DNA of 64,000 nt from Paucihalobacter ruber (lineage in GTDB: Bacteria > Bacteroidota > Bacteroidia > Flavobacteriales > Flavobacteriaceae): NCBI RefSeq assembly GCF_006494535.1, contig NZ_VHIQ01000001.1, forward strand, positions 436,736 through 500,735, written 5' to 3'. Within the stretch, counting starts at the first letter, position 1. Every line of letters starts with the position of its first letter. Below are positions 3,772 through 35,061 of this stretch, in pieces. The position numbers were made by a program, and so were the translations under genes. Under the pieces are notes generated by a model, which was not told the DNA's origin, did no database searches, and saw nothing but the letters and a program-made list of their open reading frames with translations.

Positions 3772-5397
3772 ATGGGAAAAGGATTTTTTAACGTGCCAAT
3801 CGCATTCAATGAACCGGTAAAATCTTACGCACCCGGAACACCCGAAAGAGATTTGGTTTTAAAAACTTACCAAGAGATGTACAACTCTCAAATAGAGGTA
3901 CCAATGTACATTAACGGACAACATATCAATACCGGAAAAACAGCCACCATGTCGCCACCGCACAATCACCAGCATGTGGTTGGAACCTATCATCTGGCTG
4001 AAAAACATCATATAGAAACTGCCATTAAAACAGCACTCGAAGCAAGAAAACAATGGGCCAACCTACCATGGGAACAGCGTGCTGCCATATTTTTAAAAGC
4101 GGCAGAATTGGTTGCCGGTCCCTACCGTGCCAAAATTAACGCAGCTACCATGATTGCTCAATCCAAAACCATTCACCAGGCCGAAATTGATGCAGCCTGT
4201 GAGTTTGTTGACTTCTTGCGTTTTAATGTGCAATTCATGACAGATATTTATCAAGATCAGCCCGAGAGCACAAATGAAGCATGGAACCGCGTTGAATACA
4301 GACCTCTTGAAGGATTTACTTATGCAGTTACGCCATTCAATTTTACAGCCATAGCAGGCAATTTACCGTCTTGTATGGCCCTCATGGGTAATGTGGTTGT
4401 TTGGAAACCAAGCGACAGCCAGATCTACTCTGCAAAAGTAATCATGGATGTTTTTGAAGAAGCCGGTGTACCACCTGGCGTTATTAACGTGGTATTTGGA
4501 GATCCAGTGATGATTACCAACACCATTTTATCAAGTCCCGATTTTTCAGGATTACACTTTACAGGTTCTACTTTTGTCTTTAAAGAATTATGGAAACAAA
4601 TTGGAACTAACATTCACAATTACAAAACCTACCCAAGAATTGTTGGAGAAACCGGTGGTAAAGATTTTATAGTGGCCCACCATTCTGCCAATCCTAAGCA
4701 AGTAGCAACCGCCATTATTAGAGGCGCTTTTGAATTTCAGGGTCAAAAATGTAGTGCAGCATCAAGAGCCTATATACCAAAAGGTTTATGGCCTGAGGTG
4801 AAACAGCAAATATTAGCCGATTTAAAATCGATTAAAATGGGCACTCCCGAAGATATGAATAACTTCTTTACCGCAGTTATCCACGAAGGCTCGTTCGATA
4901 AATTAGCCGGATTTATAGACCGCGCTAAAGAAGATAAGGATGTTGAGGTCATTGCAGGCGGTAATTACAACAAATCCAAAGGATATTTTATTGAACCAAC
5001 GGTATTGCTCACCACAAATCCGAAATACGTTACCATGTGTGAAGAACTTTTTGGACCGGTCATCACCATTTATGTTTATGAAGATGAAGCTTATGAAGAA
5101 ACACTCAAGCTAGTTGACGAAACCAGCGCCTATGCGCTGACGGGTGCAATATTGGCCACCGACAGATATGCCGTAGAAACCGCCACAAAAGCCTTACAGA
5201 ATGCTGCCGGTAATTTTTACATCAACGACAAACCAACAGGTGCCGTTGTTGGTCAGCAACCTTTTGGTGGCGCAAGAGCCTCAGGCACAAACGACAAAGC
5301 CGGCAGTGCCCAAAACTTGTTAAGATGGGTGTCTCCACGACTCATTAAAGAAACGTTTGTAACGCCAACAGATTACAGATATCCGTTTTTAGGATAA
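3772..5397 (+). CDS. pruA: L-glutamate gamma-semialdehyde dehydrogenase (delta-1-pyrroline-5-carboxylate dehydrogenase)
   Basis: A 541-aa aldehyde dehydrogenase of the stand-alone P5C dehydrogenase type (mitochondrial ALDH4A1-like), not the PutA fusion. It oxidises glutamate semialdehyde, in equilibrium with P5C, to glutamate with NAD+, the last step of proline catabolism. Visible motifs are the nucleotide-binding AVTPFNFTAIAGNLP, the GETGGKD glutamate loop, and the catalytic cysteine loop FQGQKCSAASR with Cys327. The C-terminal PTGAVVGQQPFGGARASGT is typical of this subfamily. It has no proline dehydrogenase neighbour and is followed by a strong terminator, so it is a single transcription unit. 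It acts opposite to the proCBA operon at 28.8-31.6 kb. Confidence 0.96.
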   Translation: MGKGFFNVPIAFNEPVKSYAPGTPERDLVLKTYQEMYNSQIEVPMYINGQHINTGKTATMSPPHNHQHVVGTYHLAEKHHIETAIKTALEARKQWANLPWEQRAAIFLKAAELVAGPYRAKINAATMIAQSKTIHQAEIDAACEFVDFLRFNVQFMTDIYQDQPESTNEAWNRVEYRPLEGFTYAVTPFNFTAIAGNLPSCMALMGNVVVWKPSDSQIYSAKVIMDVFEEAGVPPGVINVVFGDPVMITNTILSSPDFSGLHFTGSTFVFKELWKQIGTNIHNYKTYPRIVGETGGKDFIVAHHSANPKQVATAIIRGAFEFQGQKCSAASRAYIPKGLWPEVKQQILADLKSIKMGTPEDMNNFFTAVIHEGSFDKLAGFIDRAKEDKDVEVIAGGNYNKSKGYFIEPTVLLTTNPKYVTMCEELFGPVITIYVYEDEAYEETLKLVDETSAYALTGAILATDRYAVETATKALQNAAGNFYINDKPTGAVVGQQPFGGARASGTNDKAGSAQNLLRWVSPRLIKETFVTPTDYRYPFLG

Positions 5398-26946: not shown

Positions 26947-26962
26947 TCTCTAAATTTCTAAA

Positions 26963-27036
26963 CAGCTTAAAGCCCAATAATGAAAATTATTGGGCTTTTT
27001 TGTTGCATTAAATATAACAAGCCCTTTCAGTGTTCG
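26963..27036 (+). repeat. 74-bp direct repeat, left copy (contains the pnp terminator)
   Basis: The 74 nt from CAGCTTAAAGCCC to CAGTGTTCG recur at 28322-28395 in the same orientation with only two substitutions (26976 A to G, 27022 C to T). The pair brackets the RAYT gene and five of its seven neighbouring repeat copies. Identity stops abruptly at 27036, inside a CCCTTTCAGGG-type palindrome (27020-27052). Confidence 0.9.
26969..27001 (+). terminator. Terminator of pnp
   Basis: A 13-bp perfect stem (26969-26981 with 26986-26998, core AGCCCAATAAT) closed by a GAAA tetraloop and followed by T residues. A near copy is found at 28328-28360. Confidence 0.9.
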
Positions 27037-27085
27037 AAACCCTAAAAGGGCTCTATGCCCAATTTGTCACCGAGAGTCACCCAAT

Positions 27086-27470
27086 CTGGCGCTCCCGCTT
27101 TAGGCGCGCAGGCGTCTGTGACGAGTGCCCTTTTAGTATTAAGACAAGATTATGTAGTTTGGAGTTCTGAGTTATTTAGCTTTAGATATTCCATTAATCC
27201 GGCTGTTTGAAACAAATATCAATCAAAGTAAACAACACAGGCGAGCCCACCGACACCGTTAAGAACTAGTGCGCTATATAGGTGTTATTAGTACCCAATC
27301 TGGCGCTCCCGCCACAGGCGCGCAGGCGTCTGCGACGAGTGCCCTTTTATGTGGCGTTTGCAACGCCTAGAGATTACCGCATAAAAAGCAATTAAAAACA
27401 AATCTGGCTCTCCCGCTACAGGCGCGCAGGCGTCTGTGACGAGTGCCCATTTATGAAGCGTTTGCAACGC
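27086..27470 (+). repeat. REP-like cluster A, left part (3 copies)
   Basis: Copies at 27086-27130, 27300-27366 and 27404-27470, all plus orientation and all long form. Each starts CTGGCGCTC or close to it, then has the GC-rich insert, then GTCTGTGACGAGTGCC, and the last two end with the GCGTT-TGC-AACGC hairpin. The first copy lacks this second hairpin. The 531-nt gap from pnp to the RAYT holds nothing else coding; a degenerate 39-nt sequence at 27237-27275 resembles one at 33986-34024. Confidence 0.85.
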
Positions 27471-27477
27471 TAAAAGA

Positions 27478-28032
27478 TCACCATAGTGGCTGAATCATAA
27501 CATTACTCAATATATCATTACCATCCTCATAGTGTCTATAACTACTATTAATATAATCTCGCTCATGAAAAACAATTTCCGCCTCAACAGGATTATAATG
27601 AATATAATTAATACGCTGTTCTATCTTGAGAAAATTATCTAAAATCACCGGATGAAATCCGTCTTTCCATAATTTATAATTAGTTGCTCTCCCTGATCTA
27701 TGTGCCTCAAAACTAAATTTTTTCAATAACCAAACACGTCTGCTCTCCGGACGTTCATGAATCGCTTTAACGAGTCGTTTTGATGTATACTTCTTAAAAT
27801 CTCTGATAATGTTTTGTAATTCATCACCGGTTGAAGTCACAATGAGATGAATATGACTAGTCATATAAACATAAGCATGCACAACCAGCCCTTTCTCCTT
27901 AATACAATAATTAAGTGATTCATCTAAAATATTACAATAAACAGGTCTTATGAATAAATCTACCCAATCAACAACTGTTATCGTGATAAAAGTAGGAATG
28001 GAACTGTCAATGACTTTATATTTTTCAGACAT
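27478..28032 (-). CDS. REP-associated tyrosine transposase (RAYT, Y1/IS200-like superfamily)
   Basis: A 184-aa single-domain HUH nuclease. The metal-binding motif is His60-Ile-His62 in YMTSHIHLIV, the catalytic tyrosine is Tyr143 in INYIHYNPVEAEIV, and the family block LWKDGFHPVIL lies between them. TITVVDWVDLF near the N terminus is typical of bacteroidete members. The ATG at 28032 was chosen over the ATG at 28065 because homologs begin MSEKYK. The reading frame is intact. The gene has no terminal repeats of an insertion sequence; instead it is embedded in REP-like hairpin repeats, with one ending 8 nt from its stop. This fits a domesticated RAYT that acts on those repeats rather than on its own ends. 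Confidence 0.88.
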   Translation of the reverse strand: MSEKYKVIDSSIPTFITITVVDWVDLFIRPVYCNILDESLNYCIKEKGLVVHAYVYMTSHIHLIVTSTGDELQNIIRDFKKYTSKRLVKAIHERPESRRVWLLKKFSFEAHRSGRATNYKLWKDGFHPVILDNFLKIEQRINYIHYNPVEAEIVFHERDYINSSYRHYEDGNDILSNVMIQPLW

Positions 28033-28103
28033 TGATTTTATTTTAAAACAATTGATCAAGTGCAATTTAATGAAAAAATTAATTGATTTTTATAATATTC
28101 TGT

Positions 28104-28549
28104 AGCTCCCGCCGCAGGCGCGCAGGCGTCGCTCTCTGGCGCTCGTCTGCGACGAGTGCCTATTTCCACCCATACCCGTTTGTAACGAGTACCTTCTTAG
28201 ACGATAAATCTTTCATGCGGTATTGGCAGTGCTAAAAGGTTAATAAAATAGTCGCGTTACAAACGCTTTCGTTTTTCCTAAAAATGTAACTGGTACTCGT
28301 CTCAGACGAGCACCAGTCAAGCAGCTTAAAGCCCGATAATGAAAATTATTGGGCTTTTTTGTTGCATTAAATATAACAAGTCCTTTCAGTGTTCGGTAGA
28401 CATCTAGCGCTCGTCTGCGACGAGTGCTCTGCGACGAGTGCTCATCTAATTGAGCGTTTGCAACGCAAACAATACCAATCTGGCGCTCCCGACGTAGGCG
28501 CGCAGGCGTCTATGACGGGAGTGCCCGTTTAAATTGGTGTTTGCAACGC
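28104..28549. repeat. REP-like cluster A, right part (4 copies, one inverted)
   Basis: Copies: 28104-28160 (a long-form left half joined to a complete short form at 28136-28160, with a divergent second hairpin), 28254-28317 in minus orientation, 28404-28466 (short form, with GCGACGAGTGCTC duplicated) and 28480-28549 (long form). The inverted copy is an almost perfect 29-nt palindrome at 28289-28317. The 28033-28764 gap contains these copies, the right 74-bp direct repeat and about 200 nt of unremarkable sequence before proC. Confidence 0.85.
28322..28395 (+). repeat. 74-bp direct repeat, right copy (duplicated pnp terminator)
   Basis: Second copy of 26963-27036, 1359 nt downstream, 72 of 74 identical. 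It carries a working-looking copy of the pnp terminator (stem with one G-T wobble, GAAA loop, T run) although no gene ends here. Confidence 0.9.
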
Positions 28550-28764
28550 AAAAAGATTTCAACTTCCCAATTTGTCACCGACAGCCTGTCAGTTCAAAAA
28601 CTTTCAGATTTTACAATATCTTAAGAATGCTGCCTGTAAGTTTAGAACTTCATAATAATCACACCCAATCGTTTTATATATCACAATTCCTAAAATCTCT
28701 TTTGTTTTTGGGCACCATCGCACAGTCCTTGCAGCATTGATAGCGTAATAAAACAATTTAAATA

Positions 28765-29571
28765 ATGAAAATTTTAGTCATTGGTGCCGGAAACATGGGT
28801 TTAACCTATGCCGAAGGCATGACAACCTCAGCACTGCTGGGTAAGAAAAAACTCAAAATATACGACACCGATCCAAAAAAAATCACCAAACTAAAAGAAG
28901 AAGGCATTTTTGATGTCTATAACAATTTAAACGATTGTTTACCTTTTTCCGATATTGTATTCATTGCCGTTAAACCCTATCATTGCGACTCTTTGTTCAG
29001 CGAAATGAAGCCTTTAATCAAGCAAGAACAAATATTTGTATCATTAATGGCCGGGGTTACCATTCAATCCATCCAGGATGGTTTAGATGCTAAAAAGGTG
29101 GTGAGAGCCATGCCAAATTTACCGGCCAAGGTAGGTAAAGGTGTTACCTCCTACACGGCATCGAAGGAGGTTTCAAAAGTAGAATTAATGAGCATTCGCC
29201 ATTTTCTGGATAGCACGGGAACGTCTATTCATGTAGAAACAGAAACTTTTATTGATGCCTCTACCGGTATTTCGGGAAGCGGACCGGCTTATGTTTTTTA
29301 CTTCATGCAATCTATGCTTGAGGCAGCACTTAAAATGGGATTTTCAGATTACGATTCCAAAGTTTTGGTTAGTAACACTTTTGAGGGTGCCATTGAGCTC
29401 TTTAACCAATCAAATCTATCGCCCGAAGGCTGGATAGACAAGGTAGCCTCCAAGGGTGGCACAACACAAGCCGCCATAGATTCAATGGAAGACAATAATG
29501 TAAAAGAGCTTATAAAAGATGCTGCCTATGCGGCATTCGACAGAGCTGTAGAACTAGGTAAAGAGAAATAA
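28765..29571 (+). CDS. proC: Pyrroline-5-carboxylate reductase
   Basis: A 268-aa reductase. The N-terminal Rossmann motif is ILVIGAGNMG, followed by VIFIAVKPYHCDS-like sequence (SDIVFIAVKPYHCDSL), MAGVTIQSIQ, VRAMPNLPAKVGKG and the dimer-domain signature STGISGSGPAYVFYFMQSM. It reduces P5C to proline with NAD(P)H, the last step of proline synthesis. It is the first gene of proC-proB-proA, with a single nucleotide before proB, so the whole glutamate-to-proline route is made from one message. Confidence 0.96.
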   Translation: MKILVIGAGNMGLTYAEGMTTSALLGKKKLKIYDTDPKKITKLKEEGIFDVYNNLNDCLPFSDIVFIAVKPYHCDSLFSEMKPLIKQEQIFVSLMAGVTIQSIQDGLDAKKVVRAMPNLPAKVGKGVTSYTASKEVSKVELMSIRHFLDSTGTSIHVETETFIDASTGISGSGPAYVFYFMQSMLEAALKMGFSDYDSKVLVSNTFEGAIELFNQSNLSPEGWIDKVASKGGTTQAAIDSMEDNNVKELIKDAAYAAFDRAVELGKEK

Positions 29572-29572
29572 C

Positions 29573-30352
29573 ATGAGCGATAACATCAAACGAATTGTAG
29601 TAAAAGTAGGCACCAACGTACTAACCAACAAAGACAACCGAATTCTCGGACCTGTTCTAAAAGAATTGGTGAGACAAATTGCCGTTTTGTACGAAAGAGA
29701 TATTATGGTCATATTGGTATCTTCAGGATCGGCCATTGCCGGCATTGAAATATTGGGAAATACCCATATTAAAGATAAGTCCATACGCCGCCAGGTATAT
29801 TCTTCAGTTGGGCAACCAAGAATCATGAGACGATATTATACGCTCTTTCAGGATTACGGTATGCGATGCGGACAGGTATTGGCTACCAAGCGCGATTTCG
29901 ACCCCGGTAAATACAGAGAAAATATGATTAACTGTTATGAAGGCTTACTGTCGGAAGGTGTGATTCCTATTGCCAATGAAGACGATACTGTATCTTTAAC
30001 CACGTCGATGTTTTCAGATAACGACGAGCTTGCCAGTCTGATAGCAGAGTTGGTGAATGCTGACCGATTCATCATACTTTCAGATACCGATGGCTTATAC
30101 AATGGCCATCCCGACAATGAAGATTCAGAAAAATTAAACGTGGTGACTATTAACCAAAAAGTGGAACACTATGTACAGTCGTCTTATAAAAAAGAAGGCG
30201 AAGGACGTGGCGGTATGGCTTCTAAACTTAGAATAGCTAAAGGAACGGCTAAAAAGAATATACCAACCTACATTGCCAATGGTAAAAAACACAATGTTAT
30301 TGTAGATATTATTGACAATAAACCCATTGGCACCAAATTTATTAATGCATAA
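29573..30352 (+). CDS. proB: Glutamate 5-kinase (without PUA domain)
   Basis: A 259-aa amino acid kinase family protein. Motifs: IVVKVGTNVLTN, VILVSSGSAIAGIE, PIANEDDTVSLTT, and ILSDTDGLYNGHPDNED, then EGRGGMASKLRIAK. It phosphorylates glutamate to gamma-glutamyl phosphate. E. coli ProB has 367 residues with a C-terminal PUA domain; here the protein stops after the kinase domain, a short form known from several phyla. Feedback inhibition by proline takes place in the kinase domain, so it may be kept. Middle gene of the proCBA operon. Confidence 0.93.
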   Translation: MSDNIKRIVVKVGTNVLTNKDNRILGPVLKELVRQIAVLYERDIMVILVSSGSAIAGIEILGNTHIKDKSIRRQVYSSVGQPRIMRRYYTLFQDYGMRCGQVLATKRDFDPGKYRENMINCYEGLLSEGVIPIANEDDTVSLTTSMFSDNDELASLIAELVNADRFIILSDTDGLYNGHPDNEDSEKLNVVTINQKVEHYVQSSYKKEGEGRGGMASKLRIAKGTAKKNIPTYIANGKKHNVIVDIIDNKPIGTKFINA

Positions 30353-30362
30353 AATAACAAGA

Positions 30363-31562
30363 ATGAAACTATTAGATACAGAGATAAAAAACAAAGTACT
30401 AAAATCGATGGCTCAAATCCTTCACAAGAATCGCGAAGCCATAATAAAAGCCAATAAAAAAGATATCGCAGCTTTTACGGGAGAAGATCAGGCCTTATTA
30501 GACCGATTGATTATTAACAACAAAAAGGTAGACGAGATGATAGCTGCTGTTGAAGCCGTAAGCCTTCAGGAAGACCCGGTAGGTTCAGAATTGTCTAATA
30601 TCACCTTACCAAATGGATTAAAAGTTGTAAATACCACAGCGCCTTTTGGCACCATTTTAATTATCTACGAATCCAGACCCGATGTTACCATCGAAGCAGC
30701 GGTATTGGCATTTAAAGCCAATAATAAAATTCTACTGAAAGGTGGAAAAGAGGCTTATCACTCCAATGTATATTTAGAGCAATGCTGGCATGAGGCGCTT
30801 GAGTTAAACGGTCTCGATAAAGACTGGATTAAATTACTGCAGTTAGATCGCGAAGCCACTCGCGAATTCTTAAAGAACCCTCATGAACCGCTCGATTTAA
30901 TTGTACCGCGTGGTGGTGAAGCACTCATTAATTTTGTAAAAACGCATGCCAACTGCGCCGTTTTGGTGAGTGGCAGGGGCAATAACTTTTTATATGTGTC
31001 AGAGCATGCCGATTGGGGAAAAGCGGTCAACGTGATTATCAACGCGAAAACCGATAAAATATCGGGTTGTAACGCATTAGACAAGGTACTGATCAATAAA
31101 AATATTCCTGAGTATCACACCAAACTCAAAATGTTATATCAAAAACTAAAACAACACCGGGTAGACGTGTTGGCAGATGAACCGATATCTAAAGTTATCC
31201 CGGAGGCATCAATGATTTCAAATGAACACATCTGGCATGAAGAATTTTTAGCCCTTAAGATTTTATTGGGTGAAGTCAATAATTTAGAGGAAGCCATTAG
31301 TACCATTAACACTTATTCAGGAAAGCACTCGGCGGCTATCATTACCGAAGACAACTTTGAGGCAAGGCAGTTCATGCAGCTTGTAGATAGCGCAGCAGTA
31401 TATCATAATGCTTCTACCCGCTTTACCGATGGCGGACAAATGGGCGTAGGTGCAGAATTGGCGATAAGCACCGATAAATTACACCATCGCGGACCCTTAG
31501 GGCTCAAACAATTGGTTACCAATAAATATTATGTATATGGTGATGGGCAGATAAGAGTGTAG
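30363..31562 (+). CDS. proA: Glutamate-5-semialdehyde dehydrogenase (gamma-glutamyl phosphate reductase)
   Basis: A 399-aa member of the aldehyde dehydrogenase superfamily. The catalytic cysteine is Cys236 in TDKISGCNALDK; LIIYESRPDVTIEAAVLAFK, LIVPRGGEALINFV and the C-terminal TRFTDGGQMGVGAELAISTD are diagnostic of ProA. It reduces gamma-glutamyl phosphate to glutamate semialdehyde with NADPH. The frame is open upstream to 30312 inside proB, but the ATG at 30363, 10 nt after the proB stop, gives the standard N terminus. Last gene of the operon; a REP-like cluster begins 48 nt downstream. Confidence 0.96.
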   Translation: MKLLDTEIKNKVLKSMAQILHKNREAIIKANKKDIAAFTGEDQALLDRLIINNKKVDEMIAAVEAVSLQEDPVGSELSNITLPNGLKVVNTTAPFGTILIIYESRPDVTIEAAVLAFKANNKILLKGGKEAYHSNVYLEQCWHEALELNGLDKDWIKLLQLDREATREFLKNPHEPLDLIVPRGGEALINFVKTHANCAVLVSGRGNNFLYVSEHADWGKAVNVIINAKTDKISGCNALDKVLINKNIPEYHTKLKMLYQKLKQHRVDVLADEPISKVIPEASMISNEHIWHEEFLALKILLGEVNNLEEAISTINTYSGKHSAAIITEDNFEARQFMQLVDSAAVYHNASTRFTDGGQMGVGAELAISTDKLHHRGPLGLKQLVTNKYYVYGDGQIRV

Positions 31563-31610
31563 AAACAATTTAAAATCAATTTTGTTATTTTTCCGATTTA
31601 AAAATCAAAC

Positions 31611-32217
31611 CTGGCGCTCCCGCCACAGGCGCTCAGGCGTCTGTGACAAGTGCCCATTTACAACAGCGTTTGCAACGCGGCCAACAAACTCTGGCGCTCC
31701 CGCCACAGGCGCGCAGGCCTCTGCGACGAGTGCCTACTACCCTATACGTGCGTTTGCAACGCTATTAATTTCAATTTTCAATTCTCAAACCTGGCGCTTG
31801 TCTCCGACGAGTGCCCGTTTAAAAATGCGTTTGTAACGCAGAAAATCAAACTCAAACTTGGCGCTCCCGCCACAGGCGCACAGGCCGCTAACTCTGGCGC
31901 TCCCGCCACAGGCGCGCAGGCGTCTGTGACAAGTGCCCATTTATGCGGCGTTTGCAACGCTAAAAGATCACCATAGTGGCTGAATCATAACATTACCAAT
32001 CTGGCGCTCCCGCCACAGGCGCGCAGGCCTCTGTGACGAGTGCCTACTATCCTATACGCCCGTTTAAAAATGCGTTTATAACGCAGAAAATCAAACTTAC
32101 TCAAACCTGGCGCTTGTCTCCGACGAGTGCCCGTTTAAAAATGCGTTTGTAACGCAGAAAATCAAACTCAAACCTAGCGCTCCCGCCACAGGCGCGCAGG
32201 CCTCTGCGACGAGTGCC
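31611..32217 (+). repeat. REP-like cluster B (8 copies)
   Basis: Copies at 31611-31678, 31691-31762, 31791-31839, 31857-31886 (only the left half), 31894-31960, 32001-32084, 32107-32155 and 32174-32217, all plus orientation. Those at 31791 and 32107 are the short form with the variant GGCGCTTGTCTCCGACGAG. The block 31691-31860 recurs, rearranged, at 32001-32172, so the cluster grew partly by local duplication. It fills the 701-nt gap between proA and the 124-aa gene; apparent ORFs inside are by-products of the GC-rich repeats. Confidence 0.85.
31968..31996 (-). pseudogene. Duplicated 3' tip of the RAYT gene attached to a REP-like copy
   Basis: These 29 nt repeat 27478-27506 exactly, i.e. the last codons of the RAYT (NVMIQPLW) and its stop, on the same strand. 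The identity continues on the other side through ATCTTTTA-like spacer into the neighbouring repeat copy, so 31894-31996 matches 27404-27506 with only a few substitutions. The match ends inside the RAYT coding region. Confidence 0.85.
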
Positions 32218-32263
32218 TGCCTAAATTTTCAATTCTCAAAAAAAATGCTTATCTTAAGCCATT

Positions 32264-32638
32264 ATGATACAATCAGATAAAACCAAGTACACAGACATTC
32301 TCAACAACTCAATTAATTACCTGCAACAATTGGGTTTTGAAGACATTAAAGCCGACGCAGACGGCTATGAGACCCCTAAATCCTATTCAAAACTGAATAG
32401 CGATATTGTTGTAATCCCTGATATTGTAGCTCAAAAAGAAGGCAGGAAACACATTTTTGAACTCAGCTTAAAATCTGATGAACCAAAGCTGCTCAAATCC
32501 AAATGGTTGTTTTTAGACACGCTTAGTAAAATGAAGTCTTATCGTTTCGGACTCATCACCACGCGCGGACATATCAAGTTCACCAACGACATGATGAACG
32601 ATCTCAATCTTGAAGGTCCGAAACTTATCAAGATTTAA
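32264..32638 (+). CDS. Hypothetical protein, possible PD-(D/E)xK-like fold
   Basis: A 124-aa soluble protein with no signal peptide or membrane helix. I do not recognise a named family. The centre reads DIVVIPDIVAQKEGRKHIFE then LSLK: a PD pair followed 12 residues later by a strand with Glu, and a Lys two residues displaced from the usual ExK. This resembles a degenerate nuclease-like core, flanked by an N-terminal helix (YTDILNNSINYLQQLGF) and a C-terminal beta-alpha unit (YRFGLITTRGHIKFTNDMM). It sits alone between REP cluster B and rpoD. The nuclease-fold idea is weak; catalytic activity seems unlikely from the motif as it stands. Confidence 0.7.
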   Translation: MIQSDKTKYTDILNNSINYLQQLGFEDIKADADGYETPKSYSKLNSDIVVIPDIVAQKEGRKHIFELSLKSDEPKLLKSKWLFLDTLSKMKSYRFGLITTRGHIKFTNDMMNDLNLEGPKLIKI

Positions 32639-32798
32639 ATTGTTAACGCTCCTATTGGTCAAACTTCCCTGCAGAGGTCAATAATAATCACAACTCTTAG
32701 AAATTAAATATCAATTACTTATTTAAATCATTGAGACGTTAATTCATATTTTTAAGTTTTTTTGTAACAAAAATTTTACTTCTTACGTATAATTACAA

Positions 32799-32814
32799 GG
32801 TACAGCGTTGTACC
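32799..32814 (+). promoter_or_regulatory. Palindrome just upstream of rpoD
   Basis: GGTACA-GCGT-TGTACC is a perfect 6-bp inverted repeat with a 4-nt centre, ending 20 nt before the rpoD ATG. It could be an operator or a hairpin in the leader near the ribosome site. No TAnnTTTG box is visible nearby. Confidence 0.4.
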
Positions 32815-32834
32815 CTCTAATTTAACGTTACTAA

Positions 32835-33698
32835 ATGAGACAGCTTAAAATTACCAAACAGGTTACCAATCGTGAAACCGCCTCGTTAGACAAATACCTT
32901 CAGGAAATTGGCAAAGTAGATCTAATCACTGCCGATGAAGAAGTAGAATTAGCGCAGCGTATCAAGGCAGGAGACCAGGCCGCTTTAGAAAAACTTACCA
33001 AGGCTAACTTGCGCTTCGTGGTATCGGTAGCCAAGCAATATCAAAACCAGGGATTAACCCTTCCCGATTTAATCAACGAAGGCAACTTAGGTTTGATTAA
33101 AGCAGCGCAGCGTTTTGATGAGACCCGTGGTTTTAAATTCATTTCTTATGCCGTATGGTGGATTCGCCAGTCTATTCTTCAAGCTTTAGCCGAACAATCG
33201 CGTATTGTACGTTTGCCGCTTAACAAAATAGGCTCTATCAACAAAATCAATAAAACTTTTGCCTTTTTAGAGCAAAGCCATGAGCGTCCGCCAAGTGCTG
33301 AAGAAATTGCCAAAGAATTAGACATGACCATTAACGATGTTAAGGAGTCTATGAAAAATTCAGGCCGTCACGTCAGTATGGATGCACCGTTGGTAGAAGG
33401 AGAAGATTCTAACCTATATGATGTATTGAATAGCGGTGAATCGCCCAACCCCGATAAAGAATTATTACACGAATCATTACGCACCGAGATTGAGCGCGCT
33501 TTAGAAACACTAACGCCTCGCGAAGCTGACGTGATAAGATTGTATTTCGGTTTGGGCAACCAGCACCCAATGACCTTAGAAGAAATTGGCGAAACCTTCG
33601 ATTTAACCCGCGAACGCGTGCGCCAAATCAAAGAAAAAGCCATCAGACGCTTAAAACACACCTCAAGAAGTAAGATCTTAAAAACATACTTAGGATAA
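32835..33698 (+). CDS. rpoD: Primary sigma factor RpoD (sigma-70/SigA)
   Basis: A 287-aa sigma factor of the bacteroidete primary type. It has region 1.2 ([20 protein letters not shown]), region 2 ([36 protein letters not shown]), region 3 ([17 protein letters not shown]) and region 4 ([31 protein letters not shown]). The N-terminal region 1.1 and the long non-conserved insert of E. coli RpoD are missing, as is normal in this phylum, whose sigma recognises TTG / TAnnTTTG promoters like those marked in this window. It is monocistronic, with a palindrome before it and a terminator after. Confidence 0.97.
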
Positions 33699-33774
33699 TC
33701 CTAAAAATGGTAATGACGGTTTTAGATTCCTGCTTCCGCAGGAATTAAGACTGTTCGTTTTTTGATTGATGAAA

Positions 33775-33810
33775 GAACCCACGGCTGATTACCGTGGGTT
33801 CATTTTTTTA
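33775..33810 (+). terminator. Terminator of rpoD
   Basis: GAACCCACGG (33775-33784) pairs perfectly with CCGTGGGTTC (33792-33801) around a 7-nt loop, followed by ATTTTTTTA. An earlier hairpin ATTCCTGC-TTCC-GCAGGAAT at 33726-33745 has no T run and is probably an intergenic repeat. Confidence 0.85.
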
Positions 33811-33847
33811 CAAAACGCTATTGGATCTTTAAAGGTTTACAATCAGA

Positions 33848-33920
33848 GAAGTATTAAGTATTAAGACTTAAGTATTAAGACTTCATGACTTAAGGCTTTA
33901 TGATTTAAGACTCAAACATC
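33848..33920 (+). repeat. Degenerate heptamer tract (AGTATTA/AGACTTA type)
   Basis: The sequence can be read as consecutive seven-base words: AGTATTA, AGTATTA, AGACTTA, AGTATTA, AGACTTC, then looser versions to AAGACTC. It is the reverse complement of the words in the array at 41232-41697. No reading frame is supported. Confidence 0.7.
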
Positions 33921-34085
33921 AAACCTGAATACAGTACGCCAAAGAATTGGCAAAACAACAATAAAGCCACTAAAAATTATATAATACAGGCAAACCCACT
34001 GACCCTATGCAGAACTAGTGAGCTTACAAAACAGAGTTGATCGTTACAATCTAGAAGTAATAATAATTAGAATAAATATTGATAA

Positions 34086-34180
34086 ACTTGCGTAAGAAAA
34101 AAGCGAGCGGTGCGCAGCAAGTTCCTCATAGGGTCTTGATTTTTTTTGGTTCGTTTTTTTTATCAAGAAAAAAAATGAAC
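34086..34180 (+). other. AT-rich hairpin sequence in the rpoD-rpe gap
   Basis: A block with GCGAGCGGTGCGCAGCAAG and then a hairpin TCTTGAT (34134-34140) with ATCAAGA (34162-34168) around a T-rich loop. I recall closely similar sequence as a dispersed intergenic element in flavobacteria, but only one copy is in this window. The open frame over it has no coding support. Confidence 0.35.
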
Positions 34181-34200
34181 AAGTACGATTTATACTTTAT

Positions 34201-34457
34201 CTGGCGCTCCCGCCACAGGCGCGCAGGCGTCTGTGACGAGTGCCCAATTAAAAAAGCGTTTACAACGCAAAAACTCACCAACCCAAAACCTCCTTTAAAA
34301 TAAAGTCATTCCGAGGGAGGCACGACCGCGGGAACCTCTCCGGTGTAGTTCATATCTCCTGACTTGTCCGCTTCCTCTGGCGCTCGTCTGTGACGAGTGC
34401 CCATTTAAATAAGCGTTTGTAACGCCAAACAATCCAAAACACCCACAACAGCAAAAT
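34201..34457 (+). repeat. Segmental duplication, left copy
   Basis: About 257 nt spanning one long-form REP-like copy, the 69-bp repeat and one short-form copy recur at 34786-35046 in the same orientation. Most of it is identical; differences cluster in the hairpins (e.g. CTCGTCTGTGACG versus CTTGTCTTCGACG plus a 4-nt insertion). Confidence 0.9.
34282..34350 (+). repeat. 69-bp repeat, copy 1
   Basis: Runs from CCCAAAACCTCCTTTAAAAT through TCATTCCGAGGGAGGCACG to CCGGTGTAGTT. Identical to 34867-34935 and one substitution away from 43562-43630. It contains a GGGAGG ... CCTCTCC imperfect inverted repeat. Confidence 0.9.
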
Positions 34458-34552
34458 CCTCTAGTGCTCGTCTGTGACGAGTGCCCTATTTTCGGTGCGT
34501 TTGCAACGCAAACAATGAAACAATAGCAAAACCCAAAGGGAACTATTAATTT

Positions 34553-34585
34553 AGCCCTTTCAGGGTTTAAATCCCTGAAAGGGCT
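34553..34585. repeat. 13-bp perfect palindrome (CCCTTTCAGGG type)
   Basis: AGCCCTTTCAGGG (34553-34565) is the exact complement of CCCTGAAAGGGCT (34573-34585), 7-nt loop. A divergent version of the same 33-nt element is at 27020-27052 after pnp, and its first half is at 28379-28391. No T run, so not an obvious terminator. Confidence 0.75.
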
Positions 34586-34785
34586 TTACACCCCAACCCA
34601 ACTCTGAAGTTCCGGCCGCAGGTACGCCGTTTTTTGCAACTAGTGCCACTAACTCTGGCGCTCCCGCCAAAGGCGCGCAGGCGTTTGCAACGAGTGCCCA
34701 TTCCCAATTCTGAACCTTCCCCACAAGTGCACCCAAATCTTCAACAAGTGCCTCGGCTCAGAATCAAATACTCACCAACCCTCCT

Positions 34786-35046
34786 CTGGTGCTCCCACCA
34801 CAGGCGCGCAGGCGTCTGTGACGAGTGCCCAATTAAAAAAGCGTTTACAACGCAAAAACTCACCAACCCAAAACCTCCTTTAAAATAAAGTCATTCCGAG
34901 GGAGGCACGACCGCGGGAACCTCTCCGGTGTAGTTCATATCTCCTGACTTGTCCGCTTCCTCTGGCGCTTGTCTTCGACGAGTGCCTACCCATTTAAATA
35001 AGCGTTTGTAACGCCAAACAATCCAAAACACCCACAACAACAAAAT
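34786..35046 (+). repeat. Segmental duplication, right copy
   Basis: Partner of 34201-34457 at an offset of 585 nt (589 after the 4-nt insertion). It ends about 15 nt before the rpe -7 box. Confidence 0.9.
34867..34935 (+). repeat. 69-bp repeat, copy 2
   Basis: Second copy of the sequence at 34282-34350, inside the segmental duplication. Confidence 0.9.
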
Positions 35047-35061
35047 CTAAAAAACATTACC

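Follow-up and report, generated by a model that had tools for sequence, protein, structure and literature searches.

A RAYT gene set within a dense cluster of GC-rich hairpin repeats in a flavobacterial genome raises the question of whether gene and repeats belong together, as RAYTs and REP sequences do in a REPtron, and whether such units are settled or still mobile. The window, by which we mean the whole stretch of DNA analysed (64,000 nucleotides of Paucihalobacter ruber), is part of contig C1 of a 3.5-Mb genome (G000). With a probability of roughly 0.7, we read the locus as a Bacteroidota-type REPtron, composed of a subclass 2.6-like TnpAREP and its cognate REPs, with hairpins that bound mobile units in relatives and with derivatives that are local in the window. 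This explanation is strongest on the pairing and on the copies that run from hairpin to hairpin, and weakest on the cleavage site and on pasting at a replication fork.

The RAYT is a Y1/HUH protein of 184 aa encoded on the minus strand (ATG at 28032, stop at 27478). It matches Pfam Y1_Tnp (E 2e-5, 25.2 bits, cut-off 23), and its best family by far is NCBIfam REP_Tyr_transpos (E 6e-22), where its 78.1 bits stay just under the cut-off of 80, which the close relatives L004 and L132 exceed with 80.6 and 84.5 bits; the IS200 model gives 22 bits, below its cut-off of 55. His60, His62 and Tyr143 are invariant in an alignment of 10 sequences, and in an alignment of 76 sequences His62 and Tyr143 are invariant and His60 is present in at least 90%, while the SS motif after the core (S163 S164) and W122 are invariant in the RAYT and its relatives. 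The open reading frame, the Y1_Tnp match and the alignments confirm what the earlier note had described from the letters alone, an intact Y1/HUH RAYT with these two histidines and this tyrosine. An AlphaFold model of the protein (mean pLDDT 91.5) has as its top Foldseek match 4er8, the Escherichia coli RAYT bound to a REP hairpin (E 1.8e-7), with the ISDra2 and IS608 transposases ranked behind it. A profile of the family also finds 4er8 first (E 2.9e-9); the profile was required, as the single protein sequence had no match in the PDB. A search of viral contigs found no relatives of the RAYT.

Subclass 2.6 of TnpAREP, which corresponds to RAYT group 5, has been described from Bacteroidetes and has atypical flanking structures (Quentin et al. 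2018, PMC6006769). As in the accessible part of that description, the window RAYT has a Bacteroidetes host, a HuH-Tyr distance of 83 counted from His60 (published median 82), a Tyr motif of the YIHxNP type, an SS motif after the core, a conserved W, and flanking structures that are without GT[AG]G and have copies elsewhere in the genome (PMC6006769). It departs from the published motifs in having SHIH where the paper gives NH[LIV]H, and YIHYNP where it gives YIH[QN]NP (PMC6006769); its own relatives carry S or N at the first motif site and Y, N, Q or L in YIHxNP. Judged by its motifs, the protein would be subclass 2.6-like (group 5), and the suggestion of a new RAYT lineage, made in the earlier note, is not supported, since these motifs fit a subclass of Bacteroidetes published in 2018 (PMC6006769).

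Two types of hairpin coexist around the gene (Table 1), a short type with a stem of 10 bp and a triloop, and a long type with two stacked stems. By manual reading, the array holds 12 long and 8 short units, plus truncated pieces near 28103 and 31858, in agreement with the 21 two-hairpin copies within 8 kb counted earlier. A covariance model was built from 18 unit copies; the window supplied 14 of these, which therefore match by construction. The model gives 19 strong matches at 27086-35016 (E < 1e-5), 18 on the plus strand and one on the minus. Four further matches in the array are weaker and either overlap others or are degraded (28290, 31748, 32070 and 32174), and the rest of the window has a single weak match (position 5316, E 0.035). 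DNA folding of seven copies gave z scores of -5.4 to -2.5 in six and -0.96 in the seventh. The short units start with CT, carry GGCGC...GTGCC around a variable top and mostly continue with a GCGTTTGYAACGC hairpin. A GTAG or GTGG foot is absent from all 19 window units read. In the unit at 28480, both stacked stems of the long type fold end to end, which suggests that the long type goes back to a longer stem, now damaged in most copies; the same fold disfavours a plain insertion as the source of the 19-nt difference between the short and long types. A block of about 260 nt with two units is duplicated at 98% identity (34200-34458 and 34785-35047, including a 202-nt segment), and each copy starts at the CT foot of a unit.

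Table 1. Positions of the RAYT gene and the hairpin units in the window
Feature	Positions	Strand	Basis
Long-type REP unit, second hairpin degraded	27086..27142	+	covariance model E 1.5e-7
Long-type two-hairpin REP unit	27300..27368	+	fold, covariance model
Long-type unit immediately 3' of RAYT stop codon	27404..27472	+	fold, covariance model
RAYT (TnpAREP-like Y1/HUH protein, 184 aa)	27478..28032	-	ORF, family models, profile search, AlphaFold/Foldseek
Short-type unit upstream of RAYT, joined to truncated long piece near 28103	28136..28189	+	covariance model, reading
Short-type unit, sole strong minus-strand copy	28252..28316	-	covariance model
Short-type unit	28404..28468	+	covariance model
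Long-type unit, two stacked stems paired throughout	28480..28551	+	fold, covariance model
Long-type unit	31611..31680	+	covariance model
Long-type unit	31691..31764	+	covariance model
Short-type unit	31791..31841	+	fold, covariance model
Long-type unit running on into copy of RAYT gene's last 29 nt (source 27404-27506)	31894..31996	+	repeat family D5, 94%
Long-type unit	32001..32086	+	covariance model
Short-type unit	32107..32157	+	covariance model
Long-type unit without second hairpin	32174..32237	+	covariance model E 0.0012
Long-type unit	34201..34270	+	fold, covariance model
Short-type unit, top covariance-model match	34377..34427	+	fold, covariance model
Short-type unit	34461..34511	+	covariance model
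Long-type unit, degraded	34655..34714	+	covariance model E 1.6e-6
Long-type unit, duplicate of 34201 and surroundings	34786..34855	+	repeat family D6 (98%), covariance model
Short-type unit	34962..35016	+	covariance model

The whole genome holds at least 28 matches to the covariance model, 19 of them in this locus, a count that is a lower bound because 84 of 1427 first-look candidates were scored, under strict filters. The other nine are distributed over C13, C14 and C1:508-520 kb, those on C1 being at least 37 kb distant; the claim that the repeats occur nowhere else thus holds within the window, where only the weak match at 5316 lies outside the array, and fails for the genome. The exact 10-mer core has 14 of its 16 genome matches inside the locus, all on the plus strand. 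Three C13 copies and two C1 copies have the whole unit in common, and no RAYT was found near them in the surrounding 9-kb and 8-kb stretches. The genus-mate G001 carries a RAYT that is 77% identical to that of the window and sits in the same place, between pnp and proC, and its gap after proA likewise holds an array with a stem sequence of its own. A shared place with differing sequence is as expected if an array is renewed together with its RAYT. Immediately 3' of proA, the genus-mate also has a tandem run of half-hairpins that begins from CT (L032, 6580-6700).

To assess the association between RAYT genes and hairpins across the Bacteroidota, we assembled 123 RAYT loci, consisting of the best 80 of 337 named ones (all Bacteroidota by title), 42 loci from the genome search (partial matches and one second copy excluded) and the window, of which 111 were kept and 12 removed because they had stops, were redundant or had flanks that were too short. 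At 98 of these 111 loci, the best 80 of 337 included, a GC-rich hairpin is found no more than 400 nt from the RAYT, as against 2-7 loci in five shuffles, and 13 loci have no such hairpin; a second scan counted 96 hairpin loci, the two scans having read the downstream flank on opposite strands. In a control with distal regions, hairpins were found at 9/58 loci compared with 48/58 near the RAYT, but the distal regions are probably partly coding DNA, and the shuffles are the better control. The two flanks of a locus have at least 14 nt in common at 76/111 loci (11/330 for mismatched pairs), and at 59/111 loci they do so in inverted orientation.

When the hairpins were oriented by the loop alone, with the foot not consulted and 15 of 96 hairpins dropped for loops that could not be oriented, 75 of the 81 chosen hairpins had a T at position 11 counted from the loop, and 51/81 had a C before it. 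Over all oriented hairpins, the T at the foot is present in 166/191, compared with 4/23 in shuffled sequence, and the full CT in only 110/191. Wobble pairs are lopsided (43 G.T versus 2 T.G), and the commonest loops, TGC or TGT, account for 43/96. The hairpins of Bacteroidota hence share a plan, with a 5' CT foot, a 10-bp stem and mostly a TGY loop. A search with the basal motif CTRGCGC ... GTG, which covered 120 loci (3 of the 123 were dropped), returned 84 matches, and 81 of these pair in the apical region, which the motif leaves unspecified, and show 37 different apices; the pattern in reverse matched nothing in the 120 loci. Since the apical pairing lies outside the search motif, the changes are compensatory, and the way in which hairpins were picked does not produce them. 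The distances between RAYTs and between stems are correlated (Mantel rho 0.342, a value that 0 of 999 permutations reach), and this correlation is partly plain common descent. Taken as a whole, the RAYT-REP pairing is well supported.

One could suppose that the repeats spread by recombination or slippage, with the RAYT as a bystander, and the 202-nt duplication at 34200 and 34785 (98%) and the tandem half-hairpin run of the genus-mate are what this supposition would lead one to expect. We consider it very unlikely, as the flank position is constant across the RAYT loci of the phylum, the stem changes in step with the RAYT, foot and loop are specific in orientation, and copies of the unit occur on other contigs.

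The distribution of the repeats points to a pairing as well. Among 99 relatives, of which 21 have a RAYT match (genomes with only a fragment being counted among them), the window's own stem occurs in 9/21 genomes with a RAYT and in 7/78 without one (p 8e-4). Paired CTRGCGC hairpins occur in 10/21 and 4/78, respectively (p 1.4e-5), in a tally that used 26 of 88 match rows, at least one per genome and in addition all rows of the genomes called unpaired. Equal frequency in genomes lacking a RAYT, which the earlier note had regarded as the outcome that would speak against a pair, was not found in either comparison, and its proposal that RAYT and repeats form a pair has gained from these counts, from the same flank positions in relatives and from the stem that tracks RAYT distance. 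There are notable exceptions: G024, in which no RAYT match was found, has seven CTRGCGC matches, of which five are paired, and G034 has 26 such matches dispersed over many contigs with a RAYT fragment only, copies that possibly represent an orphan REP family. The hairpins might instead be signals at the level of RNA or chromosome (terminators, elements of RNA stability, DNA-binding sites) that have nothing to do with the transposase; they are intergenic, and REPs have been given such roles elsewhere, according to the accessible part of one account (PMC3733652). This is extremely doubtful, given that an Rfam scan of the locus returned no family, that the copies read have no T-run behind the stem, that foot and loop are asymmetric, that the stems beside RAYTs are lineage-specific and that the repeats are less frequent where there is no RAYT.

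If the hairpins are cognate to the RAYT, they may also mark the ends of a mobile unit, and the relatives offer a way to look at this. RAYT regions were compared within 20 genomes, namely 19 with at least two long RAYT matches among the matches listed, and G000, which has fragments only; G127, G384, G434 and G435, for example, with further partial or unlisted matches, lie outside the comparison, and alignments shorter than 250 nt or 350 nt were left out. Among the matches listed, the RAYT copies of 14 of the 19 multi-copy genomes are at least 85% identical in DNA, and those of the other five (G001, G123, G196, G287 and G341) are dissimilar. In eight genomes (G011, G133, G162 with two families, G166, G289, G366, G385 and G420), again among the matches listed, the homology runs from hairpin to hairpin over about 665-920 nt and the flanks are unrelated. 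Within the same matches, whole RAYT genes of relatives, bounded on both sides by a hairpin, are present in copies that are 87-100% identical, and G162 has three RAYT copies with 99.6-100% identity. Many of the elements end in CCCC(N)GCT-hairpin and hairpin-AGC(N)GGGG. In G037, G251, G295, G297 and G335, one end of the homology is at a hairpin or within about 30 nt of it; in G177 the homology covers the gene only, without hairpins. Families on a single contig are on the same strand in 11/11 cases among the matches listed (p 0.001), nine of them about 1.3-3.1 kb apart. Eight proteins from multi-copy genomes were scored, and seven exceed the NCBI RAYT cut-off, with L039 short of it by 0.2 bits; the IS200 model gives the same eight 22-35 bits, none over its cut-off. 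In G037, two different adjacent RAYT genes (L033, L034) have been duplicated jointly, as 1.4 kb with about 98% identity on two contigs.

Near-identical copies bounded by hairpins in unrelated flanks indicate that in these relatives, as distinct from the window RAYT, the hairpins are the ends of a mobile unit. As far as can be read from such copies with fixed ends, the RAYT relatives in the eight genomes behave in an IS-like manner, and the full-length RAYT of the window is single-copy. No exact empty site was recovered. A protein spanning the joined flanks in G162 was considered as proof of one and set aside: its homologs match well on one side of the junction only, which proves nothing. In the window's own genome, the statement that the RAYT is single-copy stands for the full-length, window-type gene, and has to be qualified for a second RAYT type, pieces of which lie at two contig ends (L050 on C7 and L051 on C3). 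On both contigs the second type starts with an identical CCCCGCT-hairpin, and the DNA ahead of it differs. The C7 copy splits a gene whose reading frame is uninterrupted for 512-546 aa in four other genomes, and a search of the own assembly did not recover the right half of this gene. These pieces may be read as this genome's own hint of mobility. The L051 copy is broken by two small inserts.

The same observations bear on a more conservative reading, in which the locus is an ordinary REPtron, with a domesticated, immobile RAYT that spreads REPs in trans and with copies in relatives that arose by gene duplication or conversion. RAYTs have been published as single-copy genes incapable of self-mobilisation (PMC3116915), class 2 is presented without evidence of mobility in the accessible part of its description (PMC6006769), and the window RAYT is itself single-copy and in the same place in the genus-mate. 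We nevertheless hold this reading to be unlikely, because it does not sit well with homology confined to hairpin-to-hairpin units of about 665-920 nt within unrelated flanks, nor with the three nearly identical copies in G162.

With the pairing and the mobile relatives taken together, the preferred REPtron reading can be compared with known systems. Like canonical REPs and REPINs of RAYT groups 2 and 3, the locus has a 5'-footed hairpin beside a Y1 gene and lineage-specific repeats (PMC3116915, PMC8266576), and inverted hairpins flank many of the RAYT genes (the 59/111 loci above); unlike them, the window units are on the same strand and clustered by the RAYT, whereas the canonical units are described in these sources as dispersed inverted pairs with a GTAG foot (PMC3116915, PMC8266576). 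With IS200/IS605 elements it shares the HUH Y1 fold, hairpins at the ends and mobile relatives, but the NCBI model scores the proteins as RAYT, with IS200 far under its cut-off, and in the mobile relatives the hairpins at the two ends are inverted copies of each other, their outer ends being CCCC(N)GCT and AGC(N)GGGG. The accessible part of the subclass 2.6 paper reports weak or atypical structures and, for class 2, few and poorly conserved copies (PMC6006769), in contrast to the common CT-foot, 10-bp plan and the near-identical copies described here. A literature search of article texts without supplements, mostly outside subscription journals, returned no description of the CT-foot plan, which is not proof of absence, and no report of whole-element RAYT mobility, class 2 included; the sequence words of the hairpins retrieved only works unrelated by title. 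What appears to be new is the IS-like behaviour of RAYT relatives and the shared hairpin plan, subclass 2.6 itself being known. Both the shared foot and stem plan and the whole, near-identical elements of the relatives had escaped the earlier note.

How such a unit might work can be sketched as follows. The REP unit consists of a CT foot on the 5' side, a stem that is 10 bp long or lengthened and a loop that usually begins with T, to which the close clade adds a second hairpin, a 5-bp TGY one, about 10-27 nt downstream. The RAYT may bind the folded single strand and use Tyr143 to cut it at the CT foot or next to it, and the cut piece might then be inserted at a replication fork into single-stranded DNA close by, on the same strand. 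In the window, the RAYT would have stayed put while hairpin-only derivatives spread locally and with a strand bias. Known RAYTs cleave REP single strands at CT dinucleotides (PMC8266576), and by analogy the fixed CT foot of the Bacteroidota hairpins may be the site of the cut or a guide to it. In one case, the duplicate of the RAYT end that follows the 31894 unit breaks off behind the C of a CT (27506 compared with 31996), the outcome to be expected from a one-ended event with a cut at C^T. Local same-strand RAYT copies, along with the repeats of the window, suggest pasting at the same fork, and jumps of a few kb onto the same strand are expected if the piece enters single-stranded DNA at one fork. 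The GC skew of the window's plus strand is negative in 7/8 blocks; if leading strands are G-rich and the CT-foot strand is the substrate, this does not fit the simplest IS608-like version on the lagging strand. Across loci, the RAYT sense strand is G-rich at 38/60 (p 0.05), a figure confounded by gene strand bias.

We lean, by a little, towards a wider interpretation, in which subclass 2.6 RAYTs would be still-autonomous transposons with REP-hairpin ends, a living form of the ancestor predicted for REPINs and domesticated RAYTs, that jump by a few kb on the same strand, with the window representing the next stage, a fixed RAYT amid hairpin-only derivatives. Near-identical hairpin-ended RAYT elements in one phylum open the origin proposed for REPs and REPINs to direct testing, with mobile, fixed and derivative stages that can be compared in living species. 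The plan of CT foot, 10-bp stem and TGY loop provides a defined substrate for assays of binding and cleavage, and a search pattern for REPs that surveys based on GTAG would miss. The results suggest that in Bacteroidota RAYTs, usually thought of as settled residents, can still jump with their hairpin ends.

Two further repeats were observed at the locus. A 77-nt stretch right after pnp, which has a terminator-like hairpin (26960-27036), recurs beyond the RAYT at 28319-28395 with 96% identity, so that direct repeats frame the RAYT island. Both ends of the array also carry a palindromic repeat of another kind (AGCCCTTTCAG...), at 27019-27052 and 34553-34586.
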